Assembly: GCA_017656145.1 (NCBI GenBank)
Contig: JACDOI010000017.1
Span: forward strand, 1-46,178
Source of the DNA: Bacillota bacterium
GTDB lineage: Bacteria > Bacillota > Limnochordia > Limnochordales > ZCTH02-B6
Direction of reading: 5' to 3'
DNA: 46,178 nucleotides
Both the position numbers and the translations under genes were made by a program. Of this stretch, positions 16,894 through 27,049 are shown one piece after another (position 1 is the first letter of the stretch; the number at the start of each line of letters is the position of its first letter). The notes beneath the pieces are model-generated. The model searched no databases. It saw only the letters and a program-made list of their open reading frames with translations, and was not told the DNA's origin.

Positions 16894-17373
16894 ATGGACC
16901 CGCGACGGCGCAAGGTTGCGTTTGCCCTGATGCTAGTGGGCATCGTGCTTGTCTACCTGATTGCGACGGCTGCGTCCAACACCACGATGTACTACTTGAC
17001 CGTCGAGGAAGCGCTGGCTCGACAGGACGAGCTGGTGGGGCGGTGGGTCCGGGTCGCCGGCCAAGTGCCCGGCGACAGCCGCGAGTTCGATCCGCGCGGG
17101 TTCCGGCTGGCCTTTGACGTCGAGCAGGACGGGAAGCGGATCCCGGCTGTCTATCGCGGGGTGCGCCCGGACAATTTGGTCGACGGCGCCGGGGTGGTGC
17201 TGGAAGGCAGCTTTAACGAAGACGGCGCGTTTGAGGTGGATCGCCTGCTGGTGCAGTGTGCCTCCAAGTATGAGGCGGCGGACCGGTACGATTCCGAAGA
17301 CTCGCGGGCCTACGAAGAGATCGACGGAGTGCTCTACGAGTCGTACGAATCGGGCTGGCGCGGAGGGCGCTAG
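16894..17373 (+). CDS. ccmE: Cytochrome c maturation heme chaperone CcmE, CxxxY variant
   Basis: CcmE carries heme outside the membrane, covalently bound, from CcmC to CcmF. The 159-residue product has one N-terminal membrane anchor (about 8-27) and an OB-fold domain (RWVRVAGQVPG, VVLEGSFNEDG). The usual heme-binding HxxxY is replaced by C-A-S-K-Y, with Cys122 and Tyr126, and the whole protein has no histidine. This is the CxxxY type known from some archaea, Desulfovibrio and certain Gram-positives. The C-terminal tail is acidic and tyrosine-rich. First gene of the locus, with GGAGGGAG SD and a candidate promoter. Confidence 0.92.
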   Translation: MDPRRRKVAFALMLVGIVLVYLIATAASNTTMYYLTVEEALARQDELVGRWVRVAGQVPGDSREFDPRGFRLAFDVEQDGKRIPAVYRGVRPDNLVDGAGVVLEGSFNEDGAFEVDRLLVQCASKYEAADRYDSEDSRAYEEIDGVLYESYESGWRGGR

Positions 17374-17374
17374 C

Positions 17375-18097
17375 TTGGAGATTCGGCTTCGAGACGTGAG
17401 CCGCCGGGTGGACGGGCGACGGTTGCTGGACGGCGTTACGCTCTCGCTCCGCCCCGGCGAGCTCTTGCTTTTGTGTGGCCCCAACGGGGCGGGGAAGAGC
17501 ACTTTGCTCAAGGTCATCGCGGGGCTGCTGGCGCCCACATCGGGTGACATCGCCTACGACGGCCGGCCCGCGGCCAAGTGGGGGCCCGGGCTCCGGCGGC
17601 ACTTGGGCGTCATGCTCCACGAAAGCCTGCTCTACGATGAGCTTACGGTGTGGGACAACCTCGTCTTCGCGGGCCGGTTGTTCGGGGTCGACGGTCTAGC
17701 GGCCCGGGCAGATGCGCTGGTCGATGAGGTAGGCCTGCGATTGGTGGCCCGCGAACCGTGCGGACGACTGTCCCGGGGAATGAAGCAGCGGGTGTCGCTG
17801 GCACGGGCGCTGATCCACCGGCCCTCGGTGCTGCTTTTGGACGAGCCGTACTCGGGTCTTGACGCCCGCTGGGCCGGTTGGCTCACGGATTTGCTGGCCC
17901 GAGAGCGGGAGCGGGGCGCGGGTATCGTGGTGGTCGCCCACGAATGGCGATTGGCTTGGCCTTTAGCCGACCGGGTGGCGGTGATCAACCGGGGGCGGCT
18001 TGTAATGCTGAAGGACGCAGGCGGGCGCAGCGCGGCCGATTTCGAGGCCGAGTACCGGCAGCTTGTGATCGCGGGCTATGAGGAGGGGAGCGGGTGA
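17375..18097 (+). CDS. ccmA: Heme exporter ATP-binding protein CcmA
   Basis: The ATPase of the CcmABCD complex; ATP hydrolysis releases holo-CcmE from CcmC. The 240-residue product has Walker A GPNGAGKST (35-43), the signature LSRGMKQR (132-139) and Walker B VLLLDEP (152-158). The start is a TTG at 17375, one base after the ccmE stop, with GGAGGGCGC ahead. The longer upstream frame lies inside ccmE and is a shadow. The end overlaps ccmB by four bases. Confidence 0.92.
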   Translation: MEIRLRDVSRRVDGRRLLDGVTLSLRPGELLLLCGPNGAGKSTLLKVIAGLLAPTSGDIAYDGRPAAKWGPGLRRHLGVMLHESLLYDELTVWDNLVFAGRLFGVDGLAARADALVDEVGLRLVAREPCGRLSRGMKQRVSLARALIHRPSVLLLDEPYSGLDARWAGWLTDLLARERERGAGIVVVAHEWRLAWPLADRVAVINRGRLVMLKDAGGRSAADFEAEYRQLVIAGYEEGSG

Positions 18098-18771
18098 GTT
18101 ACGGCCGGGCAGTCGCGGCGATTATCCGGAAAGACTTTCAATTGGAATGGCGCACCGGGGAGGCGTTGCTGACCCCGGTCCTCCTGTCCCTTTTGCTCAT
18201 GCTCGTGTTCGTCTTCGCACTGCCGCCGTCGGCGCTCCGATCCTCCGATATGTTCGTCGCAGGCTTGTGGACGGCGGTATTTTTCTCGGGTACGGTCGGG
18301 TTGTCCCGGGGCTTCGGCCGGGAGAGGCCCGACGGGCGCCTGCTGGGTTTGTTGCTCGCGCCGGTGGACCGCGGGGCGGTGTTTTTGGCCAAGGCGCTGG
18401 TCTCGTTCTTGTTTATGGCAATTTCGGCCTCGGCGACCATCCCGGCGTTTTTCGCCGTTTTCGGGCAATCTCCCGGCGCGCCTGTTTGGCGCTGGGCCGC
18501 GGTGGTGGGTTTGGTCCTTTTGGCCTACAGCGGATCGGGAACCCTCCTGGGCGCGGTCGCGGCCCAGCTTCGAGCCGGGGAGGTGTTGTATCCGGTGCTC
18601 CTGTTCCCGCTCCTGGTGCCCGTCGTGCTTGCCGCGGTGCACCTGACCGACGCGTTGCTCGTGGAAGGCGGGTGGGGATCGGCCGGGGTGTGGATGAACA
18701 TGCTGGTGGTGTACAATATCTTGTTCTGGGGCGTTCCGTATTTGGTCTTTGAGTACGTGGTGGAGGTATGA
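18094..18771 (+). CDS. ccmB: Heme exporter membrane subunit CcmB
   Basis: Integral membrane partner of CcmA. The 225-residue product has about six hydrophobic segments. The N-terminus (IIRKDFQLEWRTGEALLTPVL) matches the CcmB family, as do the GLSRGFGRER loop and the PLLVPVVLAA segment. GTG start in a GTGA overlap with ccmA; the end overlaps ccmC (ATGA). Confidence 0.91.
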   Translation: MSYGRAVAAIIRKDFQLEWRTGEALLTPVLLSLLLMLVFVFALPPSALRSSDMFVAGLWTAVFFSGTVGLSRGFGRERPDGRLLGLLLAPVDRGAVFLAKALVSFLFMAISASATIPAFFAVFGQSPGAPVWRWAAVVGLVLLAYSGSGTLLGAVAAQLRAGEVLYPVLLFPLLVPVVLAAVHLTDALLVEGGWGSAGVWMNMLVVYNILFWGVPYLVFEYVVEV

Positions 18772-19484
18772 TGTTGGCTAATCCGGGGGATGTGAAGCTT
18801 CAGCGAGCCCTGATCGCCCTGTCCGCGCCGGCGGTGGTGGCCGCACTGTACCTGGCGCTCATTTGGGCGCCCGACGAGCGGACGCTGGGAACGGTGCAGC
18901 GGATTTTCTATATCCACGTGGGCTCGGCCTGGAACGCGTATTTGGCGTTCTTCGCCGTGTTCGCAGCCAGCGTCGCGTATCTCACCCGGCGCCGGGCGTT
19001 GTTGGACGCGGTGGCGGCGTCCGCGGCCGAGATCGGCATTCTGTTTACCACGTTGACGCTGGCCACCGGGATCTTCTGGGCCCGGGCGGTGTGGAACGTC
19101 TGGTGGACGTGGGATCCCCGCCTGACGACGACGCTGATCATGTGGTTCATGTACGTCGCGTACTTGCTCGTGCGGGCTGCAGCCGACGGCGAGGAGCGGC
19201 GCGGGCGGTTGTCCGCGGTGTTCGGTATCGCGGCGTTCGCCACCGTGCCGCTGGTTCATTTCTCCGCTACGTGGTGGCGGGGAATGCATCCGAACATCAT
19301 CGAAATTCAGGGTCCCACCCCACGGATCGCCATGGATCCCGAGATGATCGTGACGATGATCACGGCCATGGTGGCGTTGACCATCGTCAGTGGCGGCCTG
19401 TTCGCGTTCAGGCTCGGGCTGGAACGGTTGATGCGGCAGGCCGACAGGCTCAAGGAGAGGATCCGCCTGGAGGTGGGCGAGTGA
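18768..19484 (+). CDS. ccmC: Heme-handling membrane protein CcmC
   Basis: Presents heme to CcmE on the outer membrane face. The 238-residue product has six predicted membrane helices and the tryptophan-rich WWD motif WNVWWTWDP at 109-117. The two expected external axial histidines are His50 (YIHVGSAW) and His164 (LVHFSATWW). The length is close to bacterial CcmC. The ATG overlaps the ccmB stop by four bases, and its own stop overlaps the small ccmD-like gene. Confidence 0.95.
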   Translation: MMLANPGDVKLQRALIALSAPAVVAALYLALIWAPDERTLGTVQRIFYIHVGSAWNAYLAFFAVFAASVAYLTRRRALLDAVAASAAEIGILFTTLTLATGIFWARAVWNVWWTWDPRLTTTLIMWFMYVAYLLVRAAADGEERRGRLSAVFGIAAFATVPLVHFSATWWRGMHPNIIEIQGPTPRIAMDPEMIVTMITAMVALTIVSGGLFAFRLGLERLMRQADRLKERIRLEVGE

Positions 19485-19654
19485 CGATGACGTACCTGTT
19501 CTTAGCCTACACCGCGTTTTGGTTGCTGTTGGCCGGATACCTGTGGAGCATGGCCGCCCGGCAACGCCGGCTGGCCCAAGAAGTTGCGGATCTTTCGGCC
19601 GCCCTCAAGCGGTACGAGGCGCAAGACCGGGTGACCCGCAGGCATGGGCTTTGA
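19481..19654 (+). CDS. CcmD-like small membrane protein
   Basis: A 57-residue gene in the position always held by ccmD, after ccmC. It has one membrane helix (YLFLAYTAFWLLLAGYLWSM), then a basic turn (RQRRLAQE) and a short helical cytoplasmic tail. The aromatic-Tyr-Trp pattern followed by RQRRL is typical of the alternative CcmD family, which stabilises the CcmABC-CcmE complex. GTG start in a GTGA overlap with ccmC and SD GGAGGTG (19469-19475); an ATG two codons later is possible. It is read in the same frame as a longer, spurious ORF that overlaps ccmC. Confidence 0.8.
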   Translation: MTMTYLFLAYTAFWLLLAGYLWSMAARQRRLAQEVADLSAALKRYEAQDRVTRRHGL

Positions 19655-20357
19655 GCAGATAACGTTTCCTCTAGCATTCGGCGCGGGAATCGTGTCGTTC
19701 GTATCCCCGTGCGTCCTGCCCCTGATCCCGGCTTACGTGACGTATTTGACCGGAAGCAGCCTGGAGGAGCTTGAGTCCTCGGGCGGCCGCGCGCGGAGCC
19801 GGCTGTTCCTCAACGGCCTGTTCTTCGTGCTCGGGTTTTCCATCGTGTTTGTCGCCATGGGGATGGGCGCGAGCGCCGTAGGGCGGTTTCTGACCGAGCA
19901 TCTGCCCCTGGTGCGGCGGCTCGGCGGGCTTGCGGTCATCGCTTTCGGCCTGTACATGATGGGTGTCTGGCGGGCTTTGGCCCTTGATCGGGAGCGGCGC
20001 TTCAAGGTGCCGGTCCGGTCGCCGGGGCCGCTCAACTCGTTGCTGCTTGGAGCGACGTTTTCGGCGGGCTGGACGCCCTGCATCGGCCCTGTGCTGGGCA
20101 GCGTGCTGGTGCTGGCGAGCACCGCCTCGACCGCTGTCCAGGGAGGGTTGTTGTTGCTCGCGTACGCGGCCGGGTTGGCCGTCCCGTTTCTCGTCCTGAC
20201 CGTGTCCCTCCACCGGCTGTGGCCTTGGCTTAGGCGCCTTTTGCCGCACGCGGAGCGGATCCGGGTGGCAAGCGGGGTGCTTTTGGTCATCCTGGGCGTC
20301 ATGGTTTACACCAACAGCTTTGTGCTGCTCAACAACTATTTCAGCTGGGGGTTCTGA
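19644..20357 (+). CDS. ccdA: Thiol-disulfide electron transporter CcdA
   Basis: A membrane protein of the CcdA/DsbD-beta family that moves reducing electrons from cytoplasmic thioredoxin to external thioredoxin-like proteins. These keep apocytochrome and CcmH cysteines reduced. The 237-residue product has six hydrophobic segments and the two redox cysteines in SPCVLPLIP (Cys23) and GWTPCIGPVLGS (Cys146). It overlaps the end of the ccmD-like gene by 11 bases, and the CcmG-CcmH fusion follows directly. Confidence 0.94.
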   Translation: MGFEQITFPLAFGAGIVSFVSPCVLPLIPAYVTYLTGSSLEELESSGGRARSRLFLNGLFFVLGFSIVFVAMGMGASAVGRFLTEHLPLVRRLGGLAVIAFGLYMMGVWRALALDRERRFKVPVRSPGPLNSLLLGATFSAGWTPCIGPVLGSVLVLASTASTAVQGGLLLLAYAAGLAVPFLVLTVSLHRLWPWLRRLLPHAERIRVASGVLLVILGVMVYTNSFVLLNNYFSWGF

Positions 20358-20361
20358 GACG

Positions 20362-21279
20362 GTGGGCCGGCGCGCCAGTTCTTGGCTGGTCCCCATGCTG
20401 TTCGCTCTGGCCGTGGCGGTCTGGGGATACGCCACGGTGCGGGAGACGGTTCCGGACGGGTTGGTCATGGGACAGCCCGCGCCCGATGCCGTGCTCGTAG
20501 ATTTGGCCGGCCGGAGGGTCCGCCTTTCTGATCTCCGGGGAAGCCCGATGATCCTGCGCTTTTCAAGCCGCACGTGCGCGTACTGTTACGATGACTTCGA
20601 GTTTCTTGAGGCGCTGCAGAGCACGTACGGCGATGGACTGCGGGTCGTGGCCATCGAAACCGGCGCTCCCGTCGACATCGTTCGCAGCGCCGTGGCCGGC
20701 AGGAACCAGAGCTACCTCGTGCTCGTGGACCCGGCCGGCGCGGCGGCGGAGGCGTACCGGGTGCAGGGATTGCCCCAGACGTACTTCGTCAGCGCGGATG
20801 GGCGGGTCCTCGGGCGACTCCTTGGGGAGTTGTCCGATCAGGACTTCCGGGCCCACGTCGCGCAGATCCTGCGGCCCGACGGCCAGGTGCTCACGAGCCT
20901 GGAAGCGGAAGTCCGGGCTGTGGCGCAGCAGGTGCGCTGCCAGGAGTGCCAGGGACTGTCGGTGTGGCAGTCCCAGGCGCCATCGGCTTGGGAGATGCGG
21001 GACGAAATCCGGGAGCTTTTGCTTTCGGGTTTGACGCGCCAGGAAGTGCTGGATGAGCTGGTGGCCCGCTACGGCGTGGATGTGCTGTTGAGCCCTCCGG
21101 CCCGGGGACGGTTGGTTTGGGCCTACGCAATCCCGTTCGCGCTGATCGCCATCGCCGCCGTCCTGGCGGTCCGGCTCGGCCGGCAAGGGAGGGCGGCGGG
21201 GGAGGAGCCGCCGCCTGTGGGCGAGATCGACCCGGGTGTTGAGGAGCGGATTCGGAAGCGGCTCGAGGAGTATTTGTGA
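20362..21279 (+). CDS. CcmG/TlpA-type thioredoxin fused to CcmH
   Basis: A 305-residue protein joining two extracytoplasmic redox steps of System I. An N-terminal anchor (about 7-24) is followed by a TlpA/CcmG thioredoxin domain (about 35-170) with active site CAYC (Cys72, Cys75) and the cis-Pro region GLPQTYFV. Then comes a CcmH domain (about 175-250) with RCQECQGLSVWQS (Cys193, Cys196) and ELLLSGLTRQEVLDELVARYG, and a second helix (251-271) with an acidic cytoplasmic tail. With both helices, both domains face outside. GTG at 20362 lies just after the ccdA stop; a GTG at 20320 overlaps ccdA and is less likely. The covalent link implies direct thiol exchange between the two CxxC sites. Confidence 0.9.
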   Translation: MGRRASSWLVPMLFALAVAVWGYATVRETVPDGLVMGQPAPDAVLVDLAGRRVRLSDLRGSPMILRFSSRTCAYCYDDFEFLEALQSTYGDGLRVVAIETGAPVDIVRSAVAGRNQSYLVLVDPAGAAAEAYRVQGLPQTYFVSADGRVLGRLLGELSDQDFRAHVAQILRPDGQVLTSLEAEVRAVAQQVRCQECQGLSVWQSQAPSAWEMRDEIRELLLSGLTRQEVLDELVARYGVDVLLSPPARGRLVWAYAIPFALIAIAAVLAVRLGRQGRAAGEEPPPVGEIDPGVEERIRKRLEEYL

Positions 21280-21329: not shown

Positions 21330-21349
21330 GTTGATCGGGGGTCGTGGAT

Positions 21350-23530
21350 GTGAGTGTGGCGACGATGGGGCAATGGACGCTGGCGCTGGCCGGTGCCGTG
21401 GCGGTCCTTGGGACGGTGGCCGCCGTCGCGGCGGCCATGTATAGAACGCGGGGAGGGATTCGTCCCCCGGCGGCCTCCGGGTGGACGCGGTTCGCCGCGT
21501 TCGGGGCGTTCGCCCTGGTCTCGGCGTCCATGGCCGCCCTGCTCTTTGCGCTGCTCACCGACGATTTCCGCGTGGCGTACGTTGCGCATAACTCCCACCG
21601 GTTGCAGCCGATAGCCTTCAAGATCGCGGCGCTCTGGTCGGGGCAGGAAGGATCGCTTTTGTTTTGGACGTGGCTGCAGGCCGGCTACACGGCTTTGCTG
21701 GCCTGGCAAAAGCCGGAGCGGATGGGCAACCTGCAAGCACCGGCCCTTGGCATCCTTTTGACTGCTGTAGCCTTTTTCGCCGGCACGACGGCCTTTGTGG
21801 CAAGCCCGTTCGCCGAGCTGTCTTCCCCGCCCATCGACGGGCGGGGGCTCAATCCGCTGTTGCAAAGTGTCTGGATGATATCCCACCCGGTCCTGCTGTA
21901 CCTGGGGTATGTGGGCGTGTCGGTGCCTTTTGCCGTCGCGATGGCGGCCCTCATTGTGCGCCGGCGGGGAAACGATTGGATCCGGCTCACCCGACGCTGG
22001 ACGATGACGGCGTGGCTGTTTTTGAGCTTAGGGATCATCGTCGGAGCCCGGTGGGCGTATGAAGAGCTGGGGTGGGGGGGCTATTGGGCGTGGGACCCTG
22101 TGGAGAACGCCTCGTTCATGCCCTGGCTGACCGCGACGGCCTTCATCCACTCGGTCATCGTCCAGGAGCGGCGGAACATGCTGAAGCGTTGGAACGCGGT
22201 CCTGGTCACGGCCACCTACTGCCTCTCCGTATTCGGCACCTTCATTACTCGCAGCGGGATCCTCTCATCCGTGCACACGTTCGTCGAATCGGAGTTGGGC
22301 CCGCTGTTTATGGTCTATCTGGGCGCGATCCTCGCCGGAGGATTGTACCTGATCCTGGACCGCGGGGATATGCTGCAGGATGAGCGGGCTGTAGAGTCGT
22401 ACGCTTCCCGGGAGTTTGGATTCGTGCTCAACAACTTGATCCTCGGGGGGCTTGCGTTCGCGGTCTTCTGGGGCACGGTGTTTCCTTTGGTTTCGCGGCT
22501 CATGGGCGTTGAGGTCACCGTGGGCGCGCCTTACTTCAACCGGATCACTGCGCCGCTGTTCGTGGCCCTCATGCTCCTTATGGGCATCGGGCCCTTGTTG
22601 GGATGGCGCCGTTCCAATTGGGCCGCAGTGGCCCGGCAAGTCGCAGTACCGGTGGGCATGGCGGCCCTGGCCGCGGGGGCCCTGTTTGCCGGCGGCGTCC
22701 GGGAGCCGGGCTTTTTGCTGGCCGTGGCCGGATCGGTCGTCGTGTTCGGGTCGGTGGCGGTGGAAGTGGTGCAGGCCGCGGCCGCCCGGATGAAGTTTAC
22801 CCAAGACCCTCCGCTACTTGTTTTGCCGCGCCTTTTGGCCCGCAACCCGCGCCGCTACGGCGGTTACGCGGTGCACCTGGCCATCGCCATGATCGCCATG
22901 GGTATCGCCGGGCACACCTATTACCACCAGGAGTCGCTGCGGGGACTGGCCGTCGGCGAGCAGGCGGCCGTCGGGCCGTATGACGTCGTGTTCGAAGGTC
23001 TGGAGGAAGGAATCCGGAACGGCGTGCCGTACACGGCCGCGCGGGTCCGGGTGAAGCAAAACGGTCAGGATCTGGGATACTTGCTCCCCGCCAAGGTGTA
23101 CCACCCGGGATGGTCGGACATGCAGGGGCCCAGCACTGAGGTGGCCATTTACTCGACCCTGGCCGGCGACTTGTACGTGGTGCTCGCCGGTTGGGACGAA
23201 TACGGCAGCGTCGTCGGGTTTCAGCTGTTTTGGAACCCCATGATCGGCTGGCTGTGGTTTGGCGGCGGCCTTTTGGTGGCCGGAACGATGTTTGCCCTCT
23301 GGCCGAGGCCGGCGCGCGCTCCCGCACCGGCGGAGCGGGTGTTTGAGGCGCTGCGGGAGCTCGAGTACGATCGGGCTATGGGGCGCATCGCGGCCGGTGA
23401 GTACGCCCGGCTGCGGGCCGCCCTGGTGCGCCGGGCGGCGGAGCTGGCCGATGCGGAGACCGCAGTGCGCGGAGCTCTGGACCGGGAGCTGGCCGCGGAG
23501 CTGGCGGCCAGGCGGGAGGCGGAAGGATGA
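21350..23530 (+). CDS. ccmF: Cytochrome c heme lyase subunit CcmF
   Basis: The large membrane protein that takes heme from CcmE and attaches it to apocytochrome c. The product of about 726 residues has many membrane helices. The WWD motif is WGGYWAWDPVENASF (from 242). The four conserved heme-ligand histidines are visible at 179 (SHPVLLY), 267 (FIHS), 309 (VHTF) and 509 (VHLAIAM). After the last helix there is a charged helical tail with ELEYDRAMGRIAAGEYARLR, a CcmI-like helical hairpin. Starts at GTG 21344, 21350 and 21356 and ATG 21365 are all in frame; 21350 is best spaced from GGGGG (21337-21341). Confidence 0.94.
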   Translation: MSVATMGQWTLALAGAVAVLGTVAAVAAAMYRTRGGIRPPAASGWTRFAAFGAFALVSASMAALLFALLTDDFRVAYVAHNSHRLQPIAFKIAALWSGQEGSLLFWTWLQAGYTALLAWQKPERMGNLQAPALGILLTAVAFFAGTTAFVASPFAELSSPPIDGRGLNPLLQSVWMISHPVLLYLGYVGVSVPFAVAMAALIVRRRGNDWIRLTRRWTMTAWLFLSLGIIVGARWAYEELGWGGYWAWDPVENASFMPWLTATAFIHSVIVQERRNMLKRWNAVLVTATYCLSVFGTFITRSGILSSVHTFVESELGPLFMVYLGAILAGGLYLILDRGDMLQDERAVESYASREFGFVLNNLILGGLAFAVFWGTVFPLVSRLMGVEVTVGAPYFNRITAPLFVALMLLMGIGPLLGWRRSNWAAVARQVAVPVGMAALAAGALFAGGVREPGFLLAVAGSVVVFGSVAVEVVQAAAARMKFTQDPPLLVLPRLLARNPRRYGGYAVHLAIAMIAMGIAGHTYYHQESLRGLAVGEQAAVGPYDVVFEGLEEGIRNGVPYTAARVRVKQNGQDLGYLLPAKVYHPGWSDMQGPSTEVAIYSTLAGDLYVVLAGWDEYGSVVGFQLFWNPMIGWLWFGGGLLVAGTMFALWPRPARAPAPAERVFEALRELEYDRAMGRIAAGEYARLRAALVRRAAELADAETAVRGALDRELAAELAARREAEG

Positions 23531-24498
23531 AGCCGGTCCCAACGAGCGGCCCGCGGGCGGCCTCGGCGGGTCCGGCGCGGGCCGTGAGCTGGTTCGCCAT
23601 CGTATCGGCGTGCCTCTGCCTGGCGTCGTTTGCCCGCCCGGCGGGCGCGAGCGTGCCTGCCCCGGCCGGCGTCGAGGTGCAGCGGGAGCACTTGTTTTTC
23701 ACCCTCGGCCCCGCTGGTGCGCACGTGCTCCACTTGATCGATCTGGTCAACCGGGGCGTCGAACCTGCCGCAAGCCTGCCGCTGCCGGTGCCGGCGCAAG
23801 CCCGGTTGGATTCGATTCCGGACGGACTGACGCTTGAGGCGGGGACGATTGTGGATTCCAGCCCCCTTGAACCGGGCGAGAGCCGCCAGTACGCGCTCGC
23901 GTATCAACTCCCCTGGCGGGAACCGATGGCGATCCGGCGGGCGCTGATCTATCCGACGCGCGAGCTGCTCATCTGGGCGGAAGAAGGCGCCATCGACGTC
24001 GAGGGCTTGCACTTGGATTTCCTGGGCCAACGGGAATTCGAAGGGATGACGTTTTCCGCCTACCGGATGGAGCGCCTGGATCCGCATCCCAATTGGCAAG
24101 TGGTCTTGCGGCGCACCGGCATCCCGGCCGGTGAATTGCCGCTTCTCATGGACCCGGTGATCGTGTCGGATCCGGCGGCGATGCTCGCCACAAGCCCCCT
24201 TTCCCGCCTGTTTTTGGCCGCGGCGGCCGTCGCGGGAGCCGCATGGCTGTATCGGCGGGCCGCCCGGCGCGGGGAGTCCCGCTTGAGGTCGCGGCCGGGC
24301 GCGCGCGCTTCAGCCCGGCATGTGCAGGAAGTCGCCGGGCATGCCCAAACGGCGGCCGCAGAGTTGAAGGAAGAAATCGTGCGCCTTGACCTCGCCTTCC
24401 GCGCGGGAGAATTGGACGAGGACACGTACCGGCAAGAGCGGGCTAAGCTGAAAGCTGAGCTTCTGACAATCGTCGGCGAACGGGAGGGATGGCCGTGA
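23527..24498 (+). CDS. Unrecognised ccm-linked membrane protein
   Basis: Family not recognised. The 323-residue product has an N-terminal signal-like segment (about 19-42). An external beta-rich domain (about 45-215) reads like a surface Ig-type or carboxypeptidase-regulatory-like fold (FTLGPAGAHVLHLIDLVNRG, LEPGESRQYALAYQLP). One membrane helix follows near 225-243, then a cytoplasmic helical tail with LDLAFRAGELDEDTYRQE. That tail resembles the CcmF tail and the helical hairpin of CcmI-type proteins. It overlaps ccmF (ATGA) and the next thioredoxin gene, so it is almost surely part of cytochrome c maturation. An apocytochrome chaperone similar in role to CcmI is a guess. Confidence 0.85.
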   Translation: MKPVPTSGPRAASAGPARAVSWFAIVSACLCLASFARPAGASVPAPAGVEVQREHLFFTLGPAGAHVLHLIDLVNRGVEPAASLPLPVPAQARLDSIPDGLTLEAGTIVDSSPLEPGESRQYALAYQLPWREPMAIRRALIYPTRELLIWAEEGAIDVEGLHLDFLGQREFEGMTFSAYRMERLDPHPNWQVVLRRTGIPAGELPLLMDPVIVSDPAAMLATSPLSRLFLAAAAVAGAAWLYRRAARRGESRLRSRPGARASARHVQEVAGHAQTAAAELKEEIVRLDLAFRAGELDEDTYRQERAKLKAELLTIVGEREGWP

Positions 24499-25796
24499 AC
24501 CGCCTGGCCCGGCTCATCCCGATCGCGGTGCTCGCCGCGTTCGCAGTCGGCGCCCTCGTGTATTCGGAAACGCTCAAGATCCGGGCGCAAGTGGGCGCGG
24601 CGGTACCAGCCTTCAGCTTGCCGGACCTGACCGGGGAACCGCAAGGCCTTGACGGATACCGGGGCCGGCCGGTGATCATCAACTTCTGGGCTAGCTGGTG
24701 CGAGCCGTGTCGCGAGGAGATGCCGGCCCACGAGGCATTCTACCGCCGCTTTGGCGACCGCATCGGGTATCTGGGAATCAACCACCGGGAAGCGCCGGTT
24801 CAGGTCGAACGCCACTTAACCCGGTCGCGGGAGCAAGGGTTGGAATTCACGTTTCCCATCTTGCTCGACCGGGACGGGGCGGTGGGCGAGATGTTCCGGG
24901 TCGGCGGCGTGCCCGAGACGTGGTTTGTGGACGGCTCGGGCGTCGCCCGCCGCCACTGGCTCGGGCCTGTTAGTTTCGAGCAGCTGGCTGCCGCCTTCGA
25001 GCATGTTGCAGGTCGACCCGTGGACGAACAAGACGGCGGACCGTTCCATGGGACCGCGGGGGCCAGAAGCGTTCTTTTGGGCAGCTCGCCGGACCGGGAG
25101 GTGTACGTCGGCGGGGAGGCGGGCTTGGCCCGCTATCGCTTGGAATCTTGGTCGGCGCCCGGGCCCGCCTACGAGTGGGAACCGTTTCGCCCGGGAACCG
25201 GGGGCGCGCTGGTGCGGGATGCGGTCACCGGAGAACCGCTGGTTTTGACCGGCTTGGAACTTTCGGGCTTGCCCGGACCGCCCGCCCAGGCCGCCGCGGG
25301 GCACGGCCGCCGCCTCGCCTGGGTGCCCGGGCATGGCCTGTACGCCGATGAGGGGGCCGGATGGCAACGGATCTCCCCTGGGTTGGCCGGCGATCTCCCG
25401 GTGCTGGCGTTGGCCGTGGACGGCTTTGCACCGGAGAGGGCCATGGCCGCTACGGCCGCTGGCTTGATGGAGAGCGTCGACGGCGGCCGAACGTGGCAGC
25501 CCGCGGGCGTGCGGCAGCGGGTCTACGGGCTGCAGTTCGACCCGTTGGTGCCCCTCCGGGTCTATCTGGCCACCGATACGGGAATTTGGGTCAGCGACGA
25601 CGGTGGCCGCACCGCCCGGCGGCTTGTCGCCAGTCCCCAGCGGGTGCTGGTGGCGGTGGACGCGCTGGAAATGAACGGAGAGACCTGGCTTGCGGCCGTC
25701 GCTCCCAACGGGGACGTATACGGCAGCCGGGACGCCGGCCGCACGTGGGAGCTGCTGATTCCCCGTCCCGGTGTTGCTGCAGGCCGGGCAGGCTGA
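24495..25796 (+). CDS. TlpA-type thioredoxin fused to an Asp-box (beta-propeller-like) region
   Basis: A 433-residue anchored protein. Residues 5-23 form the membrane anchor. About 35-175 are a TlpA/ResA thioredoxin domain with active site WCEPC (Cys69, Cys72) and cis-Pro in GVPETWFVDG. The remaining 250 residues contain three Asp-box-like repeats, SVDGGRTW (327), SDDGGRTA (367) and SRDAGRTW (411), spaced about 40 residues apart, as in sortilin/BNR and YCF48-like propellers. The GTG at 24495 forms a GTGA overlap with the previous gene and is well spaced from GGGAGG; an ATG at 24489 is too close to it. Likely an external disulfide reductase for apocytochrome or CcmH. The propeller's partner is unknown. 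Confidence 0.87.
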   Translation: MNRLARLIPIAVLAAFAVGALVYSETLKIRAQVGAAVPAFSLPDLTGEPQGLDGYRGRPVIINFWASWCEPCREEMPAHEAFYRRFGDRIGYLGINHREAPVQVERHLTRSREQGLEFTFPILLDRDGAVGEMFRVGGVPETWFVDGSGVARRHWLGPVSFEQLAAAFEHVAGRPVDEQDGGPFHGTAGARSVLLGSSPDREVYVGGEAGLARYRLESWSAPGPAYEWEPFRPGTGGALVRDAVTGEPLVLTGLELSGLPGPPAQAAAGHGRRLAWVPGHGLYADEGAGWQRISPGLAGDLPVLALAVDGFAPERAMAATAAGLMESVDGGRTWQPAGVRQRVYGLQFDPLVPLRVYLATDTGIWVSDDGGRTARRLVASPQRVLVAVDALEMNGETWLAAVAPNGDVYGSRDAGRTWELLIPRPGVAAGRAG

Positions 25797-25888: not shown

Positions 25889-27049
25889 ATGCGCAGCGGA
25901 TCCCGACCGCTGCCCAGGTGGGCGGGGTTTCTCATCGTAGCGCTCATCGCGCTCGGGCTTGCCTGGTGGGAGCTGGCACGGCAAACCAGCGGACCCGGTT
26001 CCGGCCCGCGGGAGGCCGCCGTCATCCTCACCGTTGACGGCCCGTTCCCGCCGGTGCTATACGTTGAGAACGGGACCGATTACCGCATCGCGTTTACCAG
26101 CCTGGACGAAGAGTATGCCCTGGAGGGAGTGCCGCAGGCGGAACAGCCGGCGGTGGGCCCGGGGCAGGTGGTCTTTGGGCAACTCCGGGCCGAACCGGCT
26201 TGGAACGGCCGAAGGCTCGGACCCTACGGCCCGACCGTCCGGGTCGTGGACAGCCTCGATACCCTCGTGGCCCGGGGCGAAGTTTACCCCGTGGCCGTCA
26301 TTGCCGGGGAGCGGGAGCTCATTCCGCGGCAAGTGCGGCTGCCCGAGGGTGGTTGGGCCCAGGTGGGGGGCACGAGCTTGAGCGCGCCGCGGATGCTGGC
26401 CATTGCGGGAACCGACGTCCACCTAGCGCTCTGGCCGGGTCAGCGGATGGACCTGACCCTGGAAGTGCCCGGGCCTGGGACGTACGCCGTCGAGTGCGAG
26501 CAAGGGTGTGAGCCCGGAGGCTGGAGGGGGGCTTTCCGGGTTGAAGCGGTGGCCGGCTCCGTCCCGTGGGTCGAATCCCGGGACAGCGGCCCGGCGGAGA
26601 TAGGCCGGCCAGCTCCGGACTTTGCCCTGTACGACCTGAACGGCCGGGTGGTGCGTTTGTCCGACTTCCGGGGCAAAAAGCCGGTGTTTGTCAACTTCTG
26701 GGCCACCTGGTGTCCGCCGTGCCGCCGGGAAATGCCGGCCATGGAGGAGTTGCTGGCCCGCCGGGGCGAGGAAGTCGCGATACTCGCCGTCAACTACCGG
26801 GAGCCGCGCGACCAGGTAGATGATTTCATGAAGGAACTCGCGCTGACGTTTCCGGCCCTTTTGGACGTGCGAGGTGACGTCGCCCACCGCTACGACGTCT
26901 GGTCGTACCCGACCAGCGTCTTCATCGACGCGGATGGCATCATCCGGGGCCGTTTCATCGGCGAGCTTTCGCCGGCGATGATGGATGACTTTATTGACGC
27001 CCTGACGGCGGACGCGGCCGTCTTCCCTTCCTCCGGCCCGCCTGGATGA
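25889..27049 (+). CDS. Cupredoxin-like domain fused to TlpA-type thioredoxin
   Basis: A 386-residue membrane-anchored protein (helix about 12-29). Residues 42-222 look like beta-sandwich material. The stretch MLAIAGTDVHLALWPGQRMD...TYAVECEQGC resembles cupredoxin strands leading to the CxxxC of a CuA site (Cys203, Cys207). The expected downstream His and Met of cytochrome oxidase subunit II are absent, so a true CuA centre is unlikely. Residues 236-375 are a TlpA thioredoxin domain with WCPPC (Cys275, Cys278). SD GAGAGGAG precedes the ATG. A role in thiol reduction or copper delivery to a cytochrome oxidase is a reasonable inference; the fold assignment of the first half is tentative. Confidence 0.8.
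   Translation: MRSGSRPLPRWAGFLIVALIALGLAWWELARQTSGPGSGPREAAVILTVDGPFPPVLYVENGTDYRIAFTSLDEEYALEGVPQAEQPAVGPGQVVFGQLRAEPAWNGRRLGPYGPTVRVVDSLDTLVARGEVYPVAVIAGERELIPRQVRLPEGGWAQVGGTSLSAPRMLAIAGTDVHLALWPGQRMDLTLEVPGPGTYAVECEQGCEPGGWRGAFRVEAVAGSVPWVESRDSGPAEIGRPAPDFALYDLNGRVVRLSDFRGKKPVFVNFWATWCPPCRREMPAMEELLARRGEEVAILAVNYREPRDQVDDFMKELALTFPALLDVRGDVAHRYDVWSYPTSVFIDADGIIRGRFIGELSPAMMDDFIDALTADAAVFPSSGPPG

Follow-up and report, generated by a model that had tools for sequence, protein, structure and literature searches.

The window, by which we mean the whole stretch of 46,178 nucleotides analysed here, encodes a CcmE that can be regarded with high confidence as an ordinary Cys-type (System I*) protein; the bacterium belongs to the Limnochordia, and its Ccm operon, in which the protein would act, is complete. 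Sequence, operon, conservation and phylogenetic placement support this reading directly, while the role of Cys122 in binding heme and the order in which the steps follow are proposed by analogy with characterised relatives. The features of the locus are collected in Table 1.

Table 1. Features of the ccm locus and adjoining genes (positions in the window)
Feature	Position	Strand	Basis
ccmE, heme chaperone, Cys (CxxxY, System I*) type	16894..17373	+	PF03100; AlphaFold2 model, PDB matches
Heme-binding motif CASKY (Cys122, Tyr126)	17257..17271	+	Alignment on 1j6q; Cys conservation
ccmA, ABC ATPase	17372..18097 (extent of the open frame; start codon unassigned)	+	PF00005 117.9 bits; operon position
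ccmB	18094..18771	+	PF03379 70.9 bits
ccmC	18768..19484	+	PF01578 110.7 bits; TIGR01191 122.7 bits; alignment
ccmD, alternative CcmD family	19487..19654	+	TIGR04391 41.6 bits (cut-off 24)
ccdA/DsbD-type thiol reductant transporter	19644..20357	+	PF02683 62 bits
Fusion of ResA/CcmG-like thioredoxin (CAYC) and CcmH domain (RCQEC)	20344..21279 (extent of the open frame; start codon unassigned)	+	PF00578; PF03918
ccmF, heme lyase	21344..23530	+	PF16327 176 bits; TIGR00353 428.6 bits; alignment
Putative membrane protein adjoining ccm genes in several Cys-type loci	23527..24498	+	Homologs elsewhere
TlpA/ResA-like thioredoxin (WCEPC), BNR-repeat-like C-terminal part	24489..25796	+	PF00578 67.8 bits; weak BNR matches
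ResA-like thioredoxin (WCPPC), extra N-terminal domain	25889..27049	+	NF002854 ResA 126.5 bits (cut-off 170)

The Heme Site of CcmE

The ccmE frame is intact from its ATG start to its TAG stop and encodes 159 amino acids, none of which is a histidine, as an earlier note made from the sequence alone had claimed. The product matches Pfam family PF03100 (E 9.7e-22; 77.6 bits against a curated cut-off of 24.6), covering positions 2-98 of the 99 in the domain, and is laid out as a membrane helix (residues 3-29) followed by an OB fold (about 34-120). The AlphaFold2 model (pLDDT 88) contains the N-terminal membrane helix and the OB fold, with Cys122 directly past the last strand, and its best five matches in the PDB are all CcmE structures (8ce8, 1lm0, 1j6q, 1sr3 and 2kct). 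Where HxxxY is the familiar motif, the protein carries CASKY, which aligns gap-free on LAKHDENY of the solved His-type CcmE 1j6q, so that Cys122 falls at the heme-binding His and Tyr126 at the axial Tyr. The first reading of the motif is upheld by this alignment and by the invariance of Cys122 across 36 related proteins, and Tyr126 stands four residues past the Cys, where System I* proteins have Tyr or Phe.

The Operon and the Thioredoxin-CcmH Fusion

The operon is complete, in the order ccmE-A-B-C-D-ccdA-(thioredoxin::ccmH)-ccmF with ccmE first, and 3' of ccmF lie a conserved gene and then two ResA/TlpA-like thioredoxins. It qualifies as a System I Ccm operon in that CcmA, CcmB, CcmC, CcmE and CcmF are all present and the alignments place both conserved His of CcmC (50 and 174) and all four of CcmF (181, 269, 311 and 511), the latter along with the WWD motif; the match of CcmA to TIGR01189 (125.6 bits) falls below the cut-off of 131.6. 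The source genome (2.57 Mb, 98.95% complete) has a single CcmE gene. The c-type cytochrome domain PF13442 is matched five times in it, every time in an open frame that contains CXXCH, and ResB of System II was not found, so that Ccm is the sole maturation system detected and a working one is to be expected.

The presence of CcmG-like and CcmH domains in one protein, also proposed in the earlier note, is confirmed by matches to PF00578 (53.1 bits) and PF03918 (84.4 bits), with the qualification that ResA is the closest match of the thioredoxin half (3c71, E 1.4e-13) and CcmG a far weaker one (3k8n, E 0.0026). The nearest PDB entry to the other half is a CcmH, and the AlphaFold2 model of the fusion, computed from the single sequence, has a pLDDT of 50. 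The CAYC motif of the thioredoxin half is without the usual Trp. The fusion is common to Limnochordia families f1, f2 and f6, whereas f3 has a separate CcmH, and no other genome of the 200-genome Bacillota sample gives a full-length match among the matches listed. A ResA-like thioredoxin::CcmH fusion in three Limnochordia families is mildly new, though we do not claim it to be unreported.

The gene that follows ccmF (23527-24498) is a candidate accessory factor, and profile searches with its product returned no family above cut-off. Homologs lie beside ccm genes in loci L052, L054 and L058 and on the Bacillaceae plasmids L106 and L107; in L054 the homolog and ccmF share one open frame.

Comparison With Characterised Systems

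Cys-type CcmE ('System I*') was reported from Firmicutes and Chloroflexi, with CPSKY as the usual motif and four cases of Phe in place of Tyr (Stevens et al., 2011; PMC3601427). According to accounts in later papers, the first descriptions concerned systems in which CcmH was absent, as was CcmG in Desulfovibrio (Allen, 2006; Goddard, 2010; via PMC9084895 and PMC3601427). The statement in the earlier note that such variants are described in systems lacking CcmH and CcmG therefore fits the first descriptions, as far as those accounts convey them, but fails as a rule, since about one third of the bacteria with a Cys-CcmE have CcmH, the absence of which is 'not a characteristic feature' of System I* (Stevens et al., 2011; PMC3601427). 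The window locus itself departs from the 2006 definition, in which CcmH is absent, by virtue of the CcmH domain at 20896-21213.

The CcmE proteins of Desulfovibrio desulfuricans and D. vulgaris (2KCT) share with the window a Cys where the heme-binding His would stand, the Tyr four residues on and the OB fold (PMC3884852), but their systems are without CcmH and CcmG, whereas the window has both domains, fused. In Methanosarcina acetivorans the CcmE is likewise of CxxxY type (C120), in a system without CcmD, CcmH and CcmI, while the window has CcmD and CcmH. The Metabacillus and Cytobacillus plasmid ccm loci (L106 and L107) encode CcmE proteins 39% and 38% identical to that of the window, with motif CPSKY, and comprise an annotated CcmH, a TlpA-family protein and the homolog of the 23527-24498 gene, but their CcmH is a separate gene and the gene order differs. 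The E. coli System I (CcmABCDEFGH, HxxxY) has the same core components, and the His of CcmF and CcmC are conserved between the window and Citrobacter, a close relative of E. coli; there, however, His130 is the heme ligand, and the fusion partner of CcmH is CcmI and not a thioredoxin.

Distribution of the Heme Ligand and CcmH

In the relatives sample, which is taken as class Limnochordia because the matching loci bear that name or are Bacillota MAGs, CcmE occurs in 31 genomes and is of Cys type in all of them, of His type in none; CcmH is present in 12 (families f1, f2, f3 and f6) and was not found in 19. Throughout the class, then, the ligand is Cys whether CcmH is present or not; the two do not vary together there, and the suggestion that this locus may help explain why the ligand changes is left without support. 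In the Bacillota sample, where the values for G000, G006 and G017 come from the relatives-sample readings, CcmE is again of Cys type in 48 of 48 genomes, with CcmH in 29 and not found in 19. The motif could be read in 71 Chloroflexota genomes, 22 of His type and 49 of Cys type (the latter including G063 and G064, reached by Cys-pattern scan and not by phylum draw), and CcmH accompanies the His type in 22 of 22 cases and the Cys type in 31 of 49 (Fisher p = 0.0007, uncorrected for kinship). Ten of the 11 Nitrospinota/Tectomicrobia genomes found by Cys pattern also have CcmH. More than half of the sampled Cys-CcmE genomes thus carry CcmH as well, making the combination the commoner state in this sample, and MAG incompleteness, or a CcmH too divergent for PF03918, could only raise the CcmH-negative counts. 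A His-CcmE without CcmH was found in none of the genomes sampled; the independent-pairs test of ligand against CcmH gives one supported pair and falls short of significance, ligand switches being too few in these data. Six Limnochordales genomes (families f2 and f3) have two different CcmE genes, both of Cys type (L002/L031, L003/L032, L010/L035, L021/L036, L024/L034 and L025/L033).

Phylogeny of CcmE

The CcmE tree comprises 120 sequences, is unrooted and was built with the motif columns removed; because the protein is short, its support is limited and many of its forks are unresolved. The window CcmE falls among the Cys types, and a tree that forces it together with the His types is rejected (p-AU 0.0085). 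The His label needs three changes on the tree, but a tree that unites the His types in one clade passes the test (p-AU 0.69) and even scores better, and the ligand switch happened perhaps once in these data. CcmH presence, by comparison, needs about eight changes; since the tree has no root, that these were losses of CcmH and not gains is an inference. In these data, therefore, the heme ligand follows deep ancestry, and the presence of CcmH has shifted several times inside Cys lineages.

These results also bear on the reading of the locus as an unusual mixed type. A single operon does hold both a Cys-CcmE and CcmH, and it could be taken for a transitional system, a Cys-CcmE newly joined to His-type CcmG/CcmH machinery and hence a record of the ligand switch, the more so as the early papers, as later ones present them, tied Cys-CcmE to the absence of CcmH. 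Such a transition is nevertheless very improbable, given that the combination was reported in 2011 (PMC3601427) and recurs in four families of the class and in the majority of the Bacillota and Cys-type Chloroflexota genomes counted above, that no His-CcmE was found in the class and so nothing there is in transition, and that the tree sets the window among the Cys types. Least credible of all, to the point of being negligible, is a degenerate or misread CcmE, in which the Cys would reflect an error of sequencing or of frame, or heme would no longer be carried: the assembly is fragmented into 116 contigs and probably metagenomic, but the Cys is invariant in the alignment, the gene is the sole CcmE of a genome that has c-type cytochromes, and three same-family relatives from other genomes, independently assembled and 67-71% identical over the full length including the tail, keep frame, Cys, Tyr and tail, which refutes this reading and excludes the frame error at 17256-17275 against which the earlier note had cautioned.

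Proposed Mechanism and Implications

As an ordinary System I* protein, the window CcmE would be loaded with heme exported by CcmABCD, with Cys122 as the probable attachment residue and Tyr126 as the likely axial ligand assisting the loading. The Cys is required for heme attachment in M. acetivorans CcmE (C120), and Cys-dependent attachment is reported for D. desulfuricans (PMC9084895); non-covalent binding through the Cys is reported for D. vulgaris (PMC3884852), so that a covalent bond in the window CcmE is not certain. Holo-CcmE would then pass the heme to CcmF, while the fused CcmH domain, fed by CcdA, may keep the CXXCH thiols of the apocytochrome reduced or present them, and CcmF together with the fused reductase-CcmH would transfer the heme to the reduced CXXCH. 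The Cys is passed down with the lineage, CcmH being retained here and absent in other Cys lineages.

A Cys-type CcmE does not, then, mean that CcmH has been lost, which corrects the view conveyed by the title of the 2006 paper: the ligand looks deep and nearly fixed within lineages, and the absence of CcmH looks like an optional extra. The mixed-type interpretation, already described in 2011, is largely superseded by that literature and by the census; two points keep some interest, the thioredoxin-CcmH fusion and the one-way link of His-CcmE with CcmH, and the question moves from ligand change upon CcmH loss to why His-CcmE seems to depend on CcmH and Cys-CcmE does not. The one-way rule is mildly new for this sample, and a full census is needed before it can be claimed. 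We tentatively suggest, as a possibility still short of an even chance, that His-linked heme needs CcmH and Cys-linked heme makes it dispensable, whence repeated loss of CcmH only in Cys lineages. The Limnochordia, with Cys throughout and a CcmH that is fused, single or absent, would be a natural group for testing such a dependence.

Several CcmE sequences vary around the heme site. The motif is CPSRF, with Phe for the axial Tyr, in L018 and L022 (genomes G015 and G020, both with CcmH), and CASKQ, with neither Tyr nor Phe past the Cys, in the Chloroflexota locus L182 (G147), in whose genome CcmH was not found. The CcmE of the haloarchaeal plasmid loci L109 and L110 reads VRAHEGE, in which the heme-site Cys is absent, a His lies one column later and there is no Tyr four residues on. 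In the window CcmE, residues 141-156 (17314-17361) form a tail, EEIDGVLYESYESGWR, that is missing from the other aligned CcmE proteins and mostly kept in the window's own family.
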